Source: Candidatus Pacearchaeota archaeon (GTDB lineage: Archaea; Nanobdellota; Nanobdellia; Pacearchaeales; GW2011-AR1). From it: DNA of 64,000 nt. The translations under genes and the position numbers were made by a program. Positions 6,155 through 57,205 of the stretch are shown here, one piece after another (position 1 is the first letter of the stretch; each line of letters begins with the position of its first letter). The stretch is taken from NCBI GenBank assembly GCA_018304105.1, contig JAGVWX010000007.1, positions 1-64,000 of the forward strand. The letters run 5' to 3'. The notes beneath the pieces are model-generated. The model was given only the letters and a program-made list of their open reading frames with translations, was not told the DNA's origin and did no database searches.

Positions 6155-6174
6155 TCTTTGTTTTGGGCTGTATT

Positions 6175-6300
6175 GGACGCCTGTGCACTGACGAAGTCTC
6201 ACGATATTCTTCGTGAGAGGCAGCCAGCTGGCGTCTTGATTGGTCGGCTTATTTCTTTCGCTTCAATAGGACTTGCTGTTCAAAAGGCTGCATGTCTTAA
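6175..6300 (+). repeat. Two consecutive covarying GGAC...GTCT hairpins (GGACGCC/GGCGTCT and GGACTTGC/GCATGTCT)
   Basis: GGACGCC 6175-6181 / GGCGTCT 6230-6236; GGACTTGC 6269-6276 / GCATGTCT 6290-6297. Confidence 0.75.
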
Positions 6301-6483
6301 TTATTTGGCTCACTACGTTCGCCTTATCACTACCCCACCCAAAAAATATCATACTATCTCTTCAAACCGAGAAGTGTGAGTTGCTAATTGTTCTTTTCAG
6401 ATTAAAAGAAAACTTGTTAGTCAATAGAATGAATTTTGATAGTTTTATATATTCTTGATTTCTTTTATAGTTGGAGGTGACAT

Positions 6484-6681: not shown

Positions 6682-6789
6682 AGGCATGTTTTCATTTATT
6701 TTAATTAATTGTTTTACTTGTAGGAGGAAATGAATTTCATTTGCGAGGTTAGCGTTTTGGTTATTGTTCATCCCTAATCTGGTCCAATA

Positions 6790-6819
6790 GGACTCGCTGT
6801 GCTTTGAGGCTGCGAGTCT
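6790..6819 (+). repeat. GGACTCGC/GCGAGTCT hairpin element
   Basis: CAATAGGACTCGC...GCGAGTCTTGATAATTT. Confidence 0.8.
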
Positions 6820-6980
6820 TGATAATTTACTCGCTGACGCTCGTTTAAATTATTATCCCACACTGACGAGGTTAAATCTTTCCAGTTATCGGGGCAGCCA
6901 AATCGACTTGAGCGTCTGTTATCTTTTAGATGGAAATTTTTTATTTTAATTAGTTTTATATATTTAAGATATCGTGGATT

Positions 6981-19800: not shown

Positions 19801-19860
19801 TTAATGGGATTTTGTGTATAAAAGGATTTGTAAGTTGTTGATTTTTACCTGCCCAATTGG

Positions 19861-19890
19861 ACTCGCTATTTTTTGCTGCTGCGAGTCTTG
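19861..19890 (+). repeat. GGACTCGC/GCGAGTCT hairpin element
   Basis: CAATTGGACTCGC...GCGAGTCTTGATTATTTG. Confidence 0.8.
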
Positions 19891-20041
19891 ATTATTTGCA
19901 ACTTCGCTCGCAGTGCTCGCTCGTTGTTATGCCCCCTTCATCTCGCCGAAAGTTATGATACCTACCAGACCGACTTGGGAATAGGTTTCTTGACAATATT
20001 AATATTAATTAATTTTATTTTGGAATTGTAAATTATAAAAT

Positions 20042-20746: not shown

Positions 20747-20810
20747 TTTTTCTTAGCTATGCCAAATTTTTCTTTAGCAGGTTTACTTTCCTTTTCTCTT
20801 TCTCGAATTT

Positions 20811-20837
20811 GGATGCCCGTATTTGCGGCTGGCATCA
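20811..20837 (+). repeat. GGATGCC/GGCATCA hairpin element (covariant stem)
   Basis: AATTTGGATGCC...GCTGGCATCATAATTATCTGCAACTTCGC. Confidence 0.65.
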
Positions 20838-20894
20838 TAATTATCTGCAACTTCGCTACGCTCGCTGCCCTCGGTAATAGTAAACCTGCGTTTA

Positions 20895-28022: not shown

Positions 28023-28652
28023 TTAATCAGAAAGGACGACTGCGTTTGAGGTTGCGTTCAAATAAATCACTCTCAAGCCGGAAGTTGTTCTGATGTTTCC
28101 TGTGAGGTTGACGTTGCTCTTGTAAGCTGTGACGGAATTGCCTGAACTTGTCGAGACGTTGAAGACAATGTAGTAATCCATTATTCTGATTTCATTGATG
28201 CCGTCGGGGAGATATGCTTTGACGGTTGTTCTTGCCGGATAGCCGGAGTAAAAGACTGTTTCTGACTGGGAAACTATTTTTTGTGAGAAACTTTCTATCT
28301 GGTTGAATTTCATTGTGTCTTTTATTTGTGATGAGTATGTGAGTGCGATGCCAAGAGCGGTTAAGACTATGAAAAGGACGAAAGAAATTACTATGAGATA
28401 TTCTGTGCTGATTTGTCCTTTGTTGAAGATATTTTGGAATTGTTTGCACCCACCCAACTCGCGGTCACGCTCGGGTTGCTTGCTAATTCGCTCGCGTAAC
28501 GCGCTCGCCCGCCCAGATAGTTTTGACTTGCAGTTAACTGACGAAGTCTCACGATATTCTTCGTGAGAGGCAGCCAGGCAAGCTAAATTATTTCTCGCAA
28601 ACAATTCTGGTTTTTCAACAGAATTATTTATTTGTCCTCTTTTGTTTTGCAT
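28023..28652 (-). CDS. Class III signal peptide pilin with in-frame element insertion in its signal peptide
   Basis: MQNKRGQI-[73 aa]-STEYLIVISFVLFIVLTALGIALTYSSQ; see mobile element 28420-28629. Confidence 0.75.
   Translation of the reverse strand: MQNKRGQINNSVEKPELFARNNLACLAASHEEYRETSSVNCKSKLSGRASALRERISKQPERDRELGGCKQFQNIFNKGQISTEYLIVISFVLFIVLTALGIALTYSSQIKDTMKFNQIESFSQKIVSQSETVFYSGYPARTTVKAYLPDGINEIRIMDYYIVFNVSTSSGNSVTAYKSNVNLTGNIRTTSGLRVIYLNATSNAVVLSD
28420..28629 (+). mobile_element. MITE-like structured element (family B) inserted in the pilin gene, flanked by 9-bp direct repeats ATTTGTCCT
   Basis: ATTTGTCCT at 28411-28419 and 28630-28638; ends TTGTTGAAGATATTTTGGAATTGTTTGC / GCAAACAATTCTGGTTTTTCAACA. 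Confidence 0.75.
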
Positions 28653-28719
28653 AACTCTCGGAAGGAAAAGAGATTATTAAAGTTAGTGATTAGTCCGAAG
28701 GATTGTTTATACCTCAATA

Positions 28720-28747
28720 GGACGCCAATTGAGAATGGCTGGCGTCT
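28720..28747 (+). repeat. GGACGCCA/TGGCGTCT hairpin element
   Basis: CAATAGGACGCCA...TGGCGTCTTGATTAG. Confidence 0.8.
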
Positions 28748-28902
28748 TGATTAGTTGGCTCACTTCGTTCGCAAGTTATCATGCCGACTCCGTTAACCGA
28801 TAAGTTGTGGGCTGTCTTTTATTATTTAAGTTTGATTTAGCCGATAACATACGATATTTTTGCTTTTATTAGTTCTTTAACGAAGTTAGTTTACCAATAA
28901 AG

Positions 28903-29634: not shown

Positions 29635-31827
29635 ATGGGAATAGATTTTTTTAACAAGAGAGGTGAAGCGCAAATGCCTGAGATGCCCGGATTGCCGAAG
29701 TTGCCATCACTGCCAAAGAGCAGCGATGAAGAAACGGTAAAGGAAGTAAAGAGCGTTTTGTTTAAGAAGCCGGATGATGAATTTATAAAAAGACATGAGA
29801 AAAGTCATAAAATAAAGGAAGAGGTTAAGAAAAGTCAGAAGATAAAAAGAGGAGCAGGGAAGGGTCATAAAATTAAAAGAAAGAAGTTGAAACATATGCC
29901 GAGAAAGCTGCCTAAGAAATCACGCCGCGAAATTAAAAAAGAAATGAAGAAGCTGGGCCATGAAATTAAAAAGAAGAAGCGGAATGAGCACGGAAAAGAA
30001 AAAGAGCTGGAAGCGAACAGCGCTAAGGCGTTTGTTAAGAAAGGCTCGCTGGTAAAGATTGCGCCAGAGAAATCAAAGAACAGCGAAAAGGTCGAAGGGT
30101 ACCGCTTGGAAGTTGATGGCGCTTATGCAGATGTCGAGTTGAGAAAAGATGAAGAAGGGCTGACTTACCATCTTTCTATTCCGGAGATAAGCACGGTAAC
30201 TTCTATTTTTCTGGATGAGATAAGGAATGAACTTATAAGCGCGACGACGGTCAGCATGAAAGAGCTTACCGACCCGACGCTGTTTTACAGGATTAAGAGA
30301 AGATTTTTGGAAGATTCAAGAAAGCTGCTCAAGGAGAAACTGCCCCATACTGAAAAAGCGGTTGAAGATTTTCTTGTTGGGACGCTGATGCAGGAAATGC
30401 TGGGTTTGGGAAAGATAGAATATCTTATCTCGGACCCGAATCTTGAGGAGATTGTCATTCCGTCTGCGAAAGAGCCAATAAGAATTTATTTTAAGAAATA
30501 TGGGTGGCTGATTACGAATATCAGAATTGACAGAGAAGACGAGATTGTTAATTATGCGAATATAATTTCAAGAAGAATTGGAAGGCAGATAACGGTGTTG
30601 AATCCGCTGCTTGACGCGCATCTCGTCACAGGAGACAGAATCAACGCCGTCTTGTATCCCGTGAGCACGAAGGGAAACACGATTACTATCAGGAAGTTCG
30701 CGAGAGATCCATTCACAATGATTGACATGATAACCGGGAAGACCTGCAATCTTGAAGTTGCGGCACTATTGTGGCTGGCGATTGAGTACGAGATGAACGT
30801 CCTGATTTCAGGCGGAACCGGAAGCGGGAAAACTTCTTTCCTGAATGCGTGCATGCCTTTCATTCCGCCGAACCAGAGAATCATAAGCATTGAGGACACG
30901 CGGGAACTGATGCTGCCGGAATTTTTGTATTGGGCGCCGTTAGTTACGAGAACTCCGAATCCAGAAGGAAAGGGCGAGGTCAGCATGCTCGATTTATTGG
31001 TAAATTCTTTGCGTATGCGCCCCGACAGAATTGTCCTCGGTGAAATGAGAAAACAGCAGGAAGCGATGGTTCTGTTTGAGGCGATGCATACAGGGCATAG
31101 CGTTTATTCTACAGTTCATGCGGATTCTGCTGCCGAGACTATTTCCAGGCTGGTAAATCCACCGCTGAATGTTCCGCCGAATCTGCTGAAGTCCGTGAAT
31201 TTGAATGTTGTTATGTTCAGGGATAGGAGAATGAATAAAAGGAGAGTTTTGCAAGTTGCTGAGTTTGAGGCGGACAAGGGCGGGGCGAAGGCAAATATTC
31301 TTTATAGGCTTATTCCGGACAGGGATGAAATTGTAAAGCACGCCGAGAGTTCGAGATTTTTTGAAGATGTGACTCGAAATACGGGCATGTCTGATGTAGA
31401 AGTCAATGAAGCGCTGAAGGAAAAGATGCGAATCCTTGAATGGATGATAAAAAATGGCTTGCGAAGCCTGGAGGAAATGGGAAGGGTGACGAACCTTTAT
31501 TACAGAAACAAAGAATTGCTGATGAAAGCGATCCAGCAGAATAATAAAAATTTGGTTATGAAGCAGGTTAAGAAGGAAGAGGAGAAGGCGAATAAGATAA
31601 TTGCAATTGAGAGAGAAGATAAATTTGTTTTGGCAGAAGAAAAGAAAGAGATGCCTGCAGAAGGAAAGAAAGAGATGCCTGCAGAAGAAAAGAAAGAGAT
31701 GCCTGCAGAAGAAAAGAAAAGCTCTGGTGAATTAGAGAATAAACAGACAATTGCCAAGCTTGACGAGCAGAAAGCAGTTGAAAAAATTCTAGGCAAAGAT
31801 TTTAAACAAAAATTGGCTTGGAAGTGA
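29635..31827 (+). CDS. Type II/IV secretion system ATPase (PilB/TadA/ArlI family)
   Basis: LISGGTGSGKTSFLNACMPFIPPNQRIISIEDTREL, LRMRPDRIVLGEMR, AMHTGHSVYSTVHADSA. Confidence 0.95.
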   Translation: MGIDFFNKRGEAQMPEMPGLPKLPSLPKSSDEETVKEVKSVLFKKPDDEFIKRHEKSHKIKEEVKKSQKIKRGAGKGHKIKRKKLKHMPRKLPKKSRREIKKEMKKLGHEIKKKKRNEHGKEKELEANSAKAFVKKGSLVKIAPEKSKNSEKVEGYRLEVDGAYADVELRKDEEGLTYHLSIPEISTVTSIFLDEIRNELISATTVSMKELTDPTLFYRIKRRFLEDSRKLLKEKLPHTEKAVEDFLVGTLMQEMLGLGKIEYLISDPNLEEIVIPSAKEPIRIYFKKYGWLITNIRIDREDEIVNYANIISRRIGRQITVLNPLLDAHLVTGDRINAVLYPVSTKGNTITIRKFARDPFTMIDMITGKTCNLEVAALLWLAIEYEMNVLISGGTGSGKTSFLNACMPFIPPNQRIISIEDTRELMLPEFLYWAPLVTRTPNPEGKGEVSMLDLLVNSLRMRPDRIVLGEMRKQQEAMVLFEAMHTGHSVYSTVHADSAAETISRLVNPPLNVPPNLLKSVNLNVVMFRDRRMNKRRVLQVAEFEADKGGAKANILYRLIPDRDEIVKHAESSRFFEDVTRNTGMSDVEVNEALKEKMRILEWMIKNGLRSLEEMGRVTNLYYRNKELLMKAIQQNNKNLVMKQVKKEEEKANKIIAIEREDKFVLAEEKKEMPAEGKKEMPAEEKKEMPAEEKKSSGELENKQTIAKLDEQKAVEKILGKDFKQKLAWK

Positions 31828-33973: not shown

Positions 33974-34006
33974 ACTTTGTTAATCTTGTTTGCCTTTTCT
34001 TTAATT

Positions 34007-34092
34007 AGACTTGCCATTTCTGAAACTGCAAGTCTTAATTATTGCTCGCTTAACTCCGCCCAATAGGACGCCAATTTTTGCGGCTGGCGTCT
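34007..34092 (+). repeat. Two hairpin elements: AGACTTGC/GCAAGTCT and GGACGCCA/TGGCGTCT
   Basis: 34007-34014 with 34028-34035; 34066-34073 with 34085-34092. Confidence 0.78.
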
Positions 34093-34280
34093 TAATTATC
34101 TGCAACTTCGCTCATTTCATTCTGCTCGCGATCAAGCGTCTAAGTAATCTTATTTTTGTGACGCTTGGTACGCTCGCTTGTTGCCTTAGTTATCGGCAAT
34201 GGTTGGTTTTCAACAGAATCGTCTGGTTAGTTAAGTTTTTATATTGTTTCTGGCTTGTAGTATATAAAATACGGGCGTTG

Positions 34281-34354
34281 TGCGGCGCAATAGGACTCGC
34301 TTTTCAAGAAGATGCGAGTCTTGATTTGCTGATGCGCTTCGCGCTAGCGCCGCA
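34281..34354 (+). repeat. Three-way-junction element: outer stem TGCGGCGC/GCGCCGCA, hairpin GGACTCGC/GCGAGTCT, hairpin GCGC-TTC-GCGC
   Basis: All stems perfect inverted repeats read directly. Confidence 0.85.
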
Positions 34355-34427
34355 ATAAATTTATGAAAATGAAAAAGAGTGAAATAAATTTCCCACGCTT
34401 TCCATTCAACTTGGGAGGAAGCTAAGA

Positions 34428-35912: not shown

Positions 35913-35947
35913 AGATCATAAATTTTTATTTTTTTATTTTTTTAATT

Positions 35948-36035
35948 GGACGCCAGACTTGATGGTTGGCGTCTTGATTATTTTACTTGCTTCTTTTGTT
36001 TTAATTGGACTCGCAATTTTGGAAGATGCGAGTCT
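35948..36035 (+). repeat. Two tandem hairpin elements GGACGCCA/TGGCGTCT and GGACTCGC/GCGAGTCT
   Basis: 35948-35955 with 35967-35974; 36007-36014 with 36028-36035. Confidence 0.82.
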
Positions 36036-36169
36036 TAATTCTATTAGCTCACTTCGTTCGCTTAATTATCATACTGTCATCTTGTGCTGAAGGGTTGTGG
36101 GTTTTCTATTAATTGTTCTAAGGATTAACTTTTAATATCTGAAGTTTCTAACTGATTATGAGGTAATAT

Positions 36170-46561: not shown

Positions 46562-46725
46562 TTGCTAATGAAAGCAGAAGAGTTTATAAAAATTGGTAAT
46601 TCTGAGATGAAGATAATTAGAACAAAATAGCCAAAATATTTGTAATGCCGACGGTAATTACTGATAACGTTCTTGTCAGATGTCCCAGTATTTTGAGATT
46701 AATTTGGATATTTTTGTCTTTTGGT

Positions 46726-47084
46726 TTTGTTGAAAATCTTTTTTCGAGTTGGTTGCACCCACCCACCCGCCCAGATAGTTTCGATTTGTATTAATAAATC
46801 TCTCAAATCGAATCATTTGTCGCAATTCCACTATACAAGACACCTACGGTTTCTTCTATGAAATTTTCCCTTAGTATACTGCTCAGGGCTGGTGTGAAAA
46901 ACCCTACTCGCAGCCACGCATCTTAATTGAATAAATTATTGGTAATGCGTAACATGCTCGCTCGCGACCACGTGCGAAATAATTTACTAAATACTCGTCA
47001 CGTAGTGCGCTCGCCCTAATCATCCGAATCCACGCACTTCCAATCAATATAGTAAAACCTGCAACTTGGACTTTTTCAACAGAG
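46726..47084 (+). mobile_element. Composite MITE-like element (family B, long)
   Basis: TTTGTTGAAAATC ... GACTTTTTCAACAGAG; first 99 bp identical to 56440-56538. Confidence 0.5.
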
Positions 47085-53838: not shown

Positions 53839-53897
53839 CGCTTAGATTTATTAACGTTAATTCTTAATATAAAATATCGATGTTGCGCGGCGCAATA

Positions 53898-53960
53898 GGA
53901 CACCCCTATTCGTGGCTGGTGTCACAAATATTTGACTCGCCGTTGGAATTGCTGCGAGTC
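53898..53960 (+). repeat. Two hairpin elements GGACACC/GGTGTC and GACTCGC/GCGAGTC
   Basis: 53898-53904 with 53918-53923; 53934-53940 with 53954-53960. Confidence 0.75.
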
Positions 53961-54010
53961 TTAATTTGTTGGCTCATTGCATTTGCCGTGTGATGCGATA
54001 ACAAACTAAA

Positions 54011-56410: not shown

Positions 56411-56439
56411 TTTTGGTTTATTTATTATTTGTTTTTTGA

Positions 56440-56702
56440 TTTGTTGAAAATCTTTTTTCGAGTTGGTTGCACCCACCCACCCGCCCAGATAGTTTCGATT
56501 TGTATTAATAAATCTCTCAAATCGAATCATTTGTCGCATTAGGATTCCCACAAACTTTTCGCTTACAGCGAAAATCCCAACTCGCAGCCACGCTCGAAAT
56601 CAATCAGGACATTACTCTCGCGTAACATGCTCGCCCTATCCACTATGCCACTTTACCCCAATAAATTAGTAAACCAATATTTTGATTTTTTCAATAAATT
56701 TT
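56440..56702 (+). mobile_element. MITE-like structured element (family B)
   Basis: TTTGTTGAAAATC ... GATTTTTTCAATAAA; 99-bp identity to 46726-46824. Confidence 0.55.
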
Positions 56703-56823: not shown

Positions 56824-57205
56824 CCTAGGGTGTGTGTTGTGGTAACTGAATTAGTAGTTACAAAAGTAGAAGACTCAGTTAGCGAATTAGGTAGTTTTCA
56901 GAGTCTTACTAGTGATAATTTTAAACGGTTAATGCAGCGCAATTGGACACCAATTTTTGCGGCTGGTGTCTTAATTGTTGGTCTCGCTGCGCTCGTCATG
57001 CGCTGCATTTTTTCTATCAAATTTTTTAAACAGGAGTCGTCCACACACACCCTAGGAACCACAACACACACCCTAGTTGGACGACTCTCTGTTTCTTCTT
57101 TATCATATTTTTTGGACGGGCTGCCTAGCCACAACACATACCTTGGGAAAACACACACCCTAGAATTAGGCAGCCCTGTTTTCCTTTTCTTTCAGGAGGT
57201 GAATT
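56824..57205 (+). promoter_or_regulatory. Structured leader of the giant surface protein gene with CACACACCCTAG repeats
   Basis: CCTAGGGTGTGTGTTGTGGT (56824-56843), reverse complement at 57058-57076; two perfect 10-bp stems; RBS AGGAGG before 57206. Confidence 0.6.
56931..57009 (+). repeat. Three-way-junction element: outer stem AATGCAGCGCA/TGCGCTGCATT with GGACACCA/TGGTGTCT hairpin
   Basis: 11-bp perfect outer inverted repeat; inner stem 56945-56952 with 56964-56971. Confidence 0.88.

Follow-up and report, generated by a model that had tools for sequence, protein, structure and literature searches.

Integron attC sites are single-strand hairpins that are recognized by structure. The REP and REPIN elements moved by RAYT (TnpA_REP, a Y1 HUH enzyme) are short, intergenic and palindromic, occur in clustered copies, carry alternative complementary residues in their stems, and are tied to the processing of single-strand DNA (PMC3733652, PMC6006769, PMC3116915). 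IS200/IS605 elements have hairpin ends, and their orientation tracks replication direction, the lagging-strand template being used (PMC5371812). Mitochondrial double-hairpin and repetitive hairpin-forming elements and yeast GC clusters are small, non-coding, mobile and hairpin-forming; they merge into larger structures, show short target duplications, and have no known dedicated enzyme (PMC2800124, PMC4478555). Here we describe a family of hairpin elements that appears to share these features with them (for IS200/IS605, the hairpin ends and the orientation), starting from a three-way-junction unit at 34281-34354 of a 64,000-nucleotide stretch (the window) of a Candidatus Pacearchaeota archaeon genome (contig JAGVWX010000007.1, positions 1 to 64,000). 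The family behaves like REP or IS200/IS605 elements yet lacks hallmarks of either group. With a probability of roughly one half, we read it as small palindromic mobile DNA elements, restricted to one genus of Nanoarchaeota/Pacearchaeota-like (DPANN) archaea, whose insertion targets are single-stranded stretches or hairpins of the lagging-strand template. The literature searched gave no account of such repeats in DPANN archaea, an absence that is not proof.

A three-way junction and its family

In the unit at 34281-34354 (+ strand), an outer stem closes two hairpins to form a three-way junction, at exactly the positions and with exactly the sequences that a first-pass annotation of the window had given. 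Its parts, the box upstream of it, and the outer stem of a second unit named in that annotation are as follows.

34281-34288 / 34347-34354, + strand: outer stem of the unit, 8 bp, TGCGGCGC / GCGCCGCA
34293-34300 / 34314-34320, + strand: hairpin 1, GGACTCGC / GCGAGTC
34334-34344, + strand: hairpin 2, GCGC-TTC-GCGC
34261-34271, + strand: TATA-like box TATATAAAATA, upstream of the outer arm
56931-56941 / 56999-57009, + strand: perfect 11-bp outer stem of the second unit (56931-57009), AATGCAGCGCA / TGCGCTGCATT

Folding predictions agree with this architecture at 34281-34354, where the RNA fold has z = -3.2 on both strands and a fold with DNA parameters recovers the junction. A covariance-model search places the unit in family model R1 (E 2e-11). 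The copy at 56931-57009 has the perfect outer stem ascribed to it and agrees with the expected fold in part. Its RNA z-score is -1.8 on the + strand and -2.75 on the - strand; in the minimum-free-energy RNA fold of the + strand another pairing takes the place of hairpin 1, and the DNA-parameter fold contains the outer stem and hairpin 1 only, the second hairpin not being recovered.

A covariance model of hairpin 1 (53 positions, built from 13 window copies) finds ∼50 copies in the source genome, which comprises 1.055 Mb in 23 contigs. Family matches occur in five of 39 related genomes, the source genome included, and all five belong to the same genus. By a valyl-tRNA synthetase search, the lineage falls with Nanoarchaeota/Pacearchaeota-like MAGs. 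The relatives compared with the source genome below are labeled G002, G003, G004, G006 and G008. The family has no Rfam match at gathering score, and the Rfam search of the window gave one tRNA only; a known RNA was rejected as its identity on this ground.

Pairing and covariation of the stems

Outer stems were counted for 53 copies, in stretches around them that cover ∼365 kb of the source genome. Of the 53 copies, 10 are flanked by a perfect outer stem of 9 bp or more, against 1.65 expected when the flanks of different copies are combined, and five by one of 11 bp or more, against 0.1 expected from such mispaired flanks. None of 20,000 permutations matches the observed counts at either threshold; at 8 bp the excess is weaker (266 of 20,000 permutations). 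The mispaired-flank controls thus rule out chance pairing. The annotation had taken copies without an outer stem as the sign of such pairing, and ∼42 of the 53 copies do lack one, so the outer stem is the mark of a subclass. Accordingly, the proposed unit of 75-80 nt exists as a subclass, in which most junction copies measure 70-97 nt; that it is the full unit of the family is not supported.

Within this subclass the outer stem covaries, as had been suggested from two copies. Nineteen junction copies from four species (the source, G004, G008 and G002) have 19 different 5' arms that are still Watson-Crick paired, with 204 Watson-Crick, four GT and three AC pairs. Hairpin 1 behaves likewise: 96.7% of its cells are paired, both-sided changes occur in five of seven pairs, and none of 500 shuffles reaches its covariation score. 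Over 54 copies (gapped rows counted), its 29 stem variants contain 352 Watson-Crick, one GT and two AC pairs. The corresponding counts in G004 are 170, two and one for hairpin 1 and 189, three and three for the outer stems. If an RNA stem were evolving via G-U intermediates, GT cells should be frequent on the strand that is transcribed. Here the GT and AC counts are equal and tiny, and therefore neither strand is favored. In five copies (L064:19317, L063:11534, L067:7622, L064:236 and L069:5050) the loop has shrunk to the two nucleotides AA (GACTCGCAAGCGAGTC), as expected from hairpin-loop loss at the DNA level.

Template switching creates and mends perfect hairpins and can replace both arms at once (PMC8794818); because of this, covariation alone is no proof of a selected structure. 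On a purely mutational account, template switching perfects any inverted repeat, the pairing is uninformative about function, and the family is inert debris. The change of both sides of a pair without wobble intermediates is a pattern that template switching yields (PMC8794818; see also PMC7202029). This account leaves unexplained the conserved junction sequences (AATWGGAC and GTCTTRATT), as well as the spread to many sites, the polarity and the single loop insertion position described below, and we consider it unlikely.

Orientation, insertion sites and possible transcription

All copies on a contig share one orientation, which is that of the G-rich leading strand, in the two species for which this was assessed (13 + 10 contigs, ∼89 copies). 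In the source genome, every family-1 copy (the family of the 34281-34354 unit) has the sign of its contig's GC skew. In G004, 35 pattern copies (control 0) are concordant within all 10 contigs, and all 30 loci examined agree with the local GC skew. A match of + orientation on a - contig (L062:17569, E 0.012) was set aside; it reads as a family-2 hairpin in reverse complement. Flanking genes, classed by element orientation in the source genome, are mixed (-- 17, -+ 16, ++ 16, +- 1), and therefore gene direction does not set the orientation of the element. Other intergenic repeat words are equally one-sided (13:0, 10:0, 10:0 and 15:0).

The source genome also has a very strong third-position GC skew, about +0.40 (median +0.41) in leading genes and -0.37 in lagging genes, and replication direction can therefore be read gene by gene. 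On two contigs with flat GC skew (C9 and C11), the sense third-position skew of the genes is -0.23 and -0.31, like that of lagging genes, and this resolves the two contigs.

Positions of the elements are not conserved. In the relatives compared, no copy was found in an orthologous place; orthologous intervals other than the one described next hold different elements or none there. The interval between a secretion gene and a KaiC-like gene, which contains the 34281-34354 unit, provides an example. Upstream of the unit it also holds the following array.

33974-34200, + strand: ∼225-bp insertion relative to G008, with TGGTTAG direct repeats on both sides
33998-34050, + strand: family-1 hairpin core, array copy 1, upstream of the KaiC-like gene
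34057-34107, + strand: family-1 hairpin core, array copy 2

In G008 the interval lacks the array (33974-34200) as well as the junction unit and the TATA-like box (∼34261-34362). A conserved 5' leader of the KaiC-like gene was rejected, as the G008, G006 and G002 orthologs lack it and the G004 copy is different and lies further upstream.

Complete polarity would also be expected of a host signal, that is, of hairpins that, like polar sequence motifs, the replisome binds or uses (for priming, pausing or segregation) and whose orientation is under selection. We regard this as very unlikely, given that the positions are unconserved, the family is absent outside one genus among the 39 genomes, sequence turnover is strong, and copies are nested and tandem. 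Moreover, the same polarity in several unrelated families is easier to reconcile with a common route of insertion than with a single signal.

In six source-genome copies, the core is preceded by a phased TATA-like word at a distance of 23-29 nt. The base-level copies in G004 have TATATAAAWTATAT-TTCGGCACGC in common, and the box at 34261-34271 and the junction are kept together in that species. The unit might thus be a transcribed RNA, with a TATA box ∼25 nt upstream and a start at the outer stem, forming a 5'-terminal three-way-junction leader or a small RNA whose co-orientation is selected against head-on collisions. The location of several junction copies 38-108 nt upstream of co-directional genes and the predicted RNA fold of 34281-34354 (z about -3) fit this as well. 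However, G-U pairs are almost nil in the stems and GT is not in excess of AC, the genes on both sides of 17 copies have the opposite direction, and some of the copies with a TATA-like word have a convergent gene ahead of them or an antisense open reading frame across them (L054, L056 and L075). Orthologous genes in relatives lack the element, and Rfam holds no match. We therefore find a transcribed RNA doubtful. The AT-rich TATA-like stretch is also almost a palindrome, and may itself represent a target or a further hairpin. As to whether the unit is a cruciform or an RNA junction, between which the annotation had not chosen, the near absence of wobble pairs, the replication-strand orientation, the unconserved positions and the nesting in loops all lean toward DNA.

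Nesting is seen in G004, where TTGATGCG...CGCATCAA units occupy a single position in the hairpin-2 loop of host units whose stems differ, in one case three deep. In the nested cases the insert begins exactly at its outer arm, and the outer stem therefore delimits the unit. The left and right 3-nt flanks of the nested units are CTC/CTC (L152) and CTT/CTT (L153), and CTT/CTC in others. It is conceivable that a shared composite was copied as one piece, though the hosts differ in both outer stem and hairpin 1, which speaks against it.

Terminal inverted repeats and possible target duplications, of 3 nt at the junction units or 7 nt at 33974-34200 (TGGTTAG), are also what ordinary miniature inverted-repeat transposable elements (MITEs) would leave if a double-strand (DDE) transposase mobilized them in trans while the sliding clamp set the insertion orientation; a clamp-linked orientation bias is known in several IS families (PMC5371812). 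The terminal repeats here are not shared in sequence among members (19 distinct arms in 19 copies), unlike sequence-recognized transposon ends, and an autonomous partner whose ends match was not found, DDE families not having been searched. This origin is decidedly unlikely in our judgment.

Candidate enzymes, possible mechanism and further copies

The source genome encodes one Y1 gene, of IS200/IS605 type (83.5 bits; 21.2 with the RAYT model, against a cut-off of 80). The REP foot GTAG/CGTC is absent from the family consensus, in which the feet are AATWGG and TTRATT. With neither a foot motif nor a RAYT above the cut-off, RAYT/REP membership was rejected. The family further differs from REPs in its strict replication orientation, in the variable outer stem around its two hairpins, and in the near absence of wobble pairs, whereas GT pairs are frequent in REP families (PMC3733652). 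A derivative of IS200/IS605 sharing ends with a host TnpA element is likewise not what we find. The sole TnpA of the source genome lies in its own element (L006), whose flanks, read by eye, are unlike the family, and G004 has many copies with no Y1 detected.

In its features the family fits the description of elements of the double-hairpin type: mobile hairpin DNA, small and non-coding, with no gene dedicated to it. It differs from the mitochondrial elements in lying on an archaeal chromosome, in its strict replication polarity, and in its strongly varying stems; the sponge elements keep their stems and vary their loops. The R'/R'' core sites generally known from integron attC are absent from the family consensus (A1), and there are no cassette arrays here, integrase genes not having been searched.

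Reverse transcriptase genes are present in all five element-bearing genomes tested, a set that did not include element-free genomes, and SINE-like spread via a host reverse transcriptase is neither supported nor excluded. The reverse transcriptase of the source genome, a fragment at C5:16211-16576 (L079), looks by eye like that of a diversity-generating retroelement; a stop within the match, beside a C run, possibly reflects a broken gene or a sequencing error.

If the family consists of mobile DNA elements, its behavior may be pictured as follows. The junction unit (about 75-97 nt), with the outer stem as its two ends and two internal hairpins, would fold behind the fork, where the lagging-strand template is single-stranded. 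A putative enzyme that reads structure more than sequence would then copy or paste it into other single-stranded or hairpin-loop sites, and DNA-level template switching between the arms would keep the stems perfect while their sequence drifts. A bolder version is possible, and we offer it tentatively: hairpin elements may spread at the replication fork by structure alone, the putative enzyme recognizing the three-way junction, not sequence, and inserting into lagging-template hairpin loops, so that branched nested structures grow.

Several points weigh against reading the family as mobile DNA. The phased TATA-like box in six source-genome copies and in G004 suggests that some copies are transcribed. 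Replication direction is a GC-skew proxy without a mapped origin, and copies that share a contig are non-independent observations. The target duplications, seen in two clean nested cases, could be tandem-duplication scars. A Y1 (HUH) transposase was not detected in G004, which has at least 35 copies in an assembly that is 88% complete, nor in the draft genome of G003, which also bears the family. Finally, no mobilizing enzyme has been identified, DDE, Cas1-like and other families not having been searched.

The window contains further copies and related elements.

6166-6251, + strand: family-1 hairpin with an enlarged loop containing another hairpin module (ACTGACGAAGTC...GAGGCAGCCAG)
6260-6312, + strand: family-1 hairpin core without outer stem
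6781-6834, + strand: family-1 hairpin core without outer stem
19850-19903, + strand: family-1 hairpin core
20777-20889, + strand: family copy; outer stem distant, perfect over 11 bp, GCAGGTTTACT / AGTAAACCTGC
28711-28762, + strand: family-1 hairpin core
35939-36050, + strand: tandem pair of family-1 hairpin cores
53889-53976, + strand: tandem pair of family-1 hairpin cores, with a TATA-like box upstream
56423-56538, + strand: family-2 composite element (TTGTTGAAAATC...), with the same polarity as family 1

Family 2 is a second, larger polar element, represented by 116-nt copies at 46709-46824 and 56423-56538 that are 95% identical, with ends like CTTTGTTGAAAA...TTTTCAACAAAG and a C-rich CCCACCC core. 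A further hairpin module has a conserved GACGARGTC...GAGGCAGC around a variable stem (6190-6235, 28535-28580, L064 and L070) and occurs in tandem and within the loops of other hairpins. Perfect 10-bp inverted repeats at 57034-57087 (GAGTCGTCCA/TGGACGACTC) and 57118-57176 (GGGCTGCCTA/TAGGCAGCCC) adjoin the junction copy at 56931; CACACACCCTAG is repeated inside the loops of both, and a word complementary to it, CCTAGGGTGTGTGTTGTGG, lies at ∼56823. Tandem repeats of 24 nt (GCAGAAGAAAAGAAAGAGATGCCT) occur inside an open reading frame at 31633-31743.

With a family that combines complete polarity, stems that change yet stay paired, and insertion into hairpin loops, one could test directly for single-strand DNA transposition in archaea and perhaps reach a novel mobilizing enzyme. 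In fragmented DPANN assemblies, the way the elements point can be used to tell the direction of replication. The family also counsels caution, since a DNA element, too, can give rise to stem covariation, which is commonly read as proof of a functional RNA.
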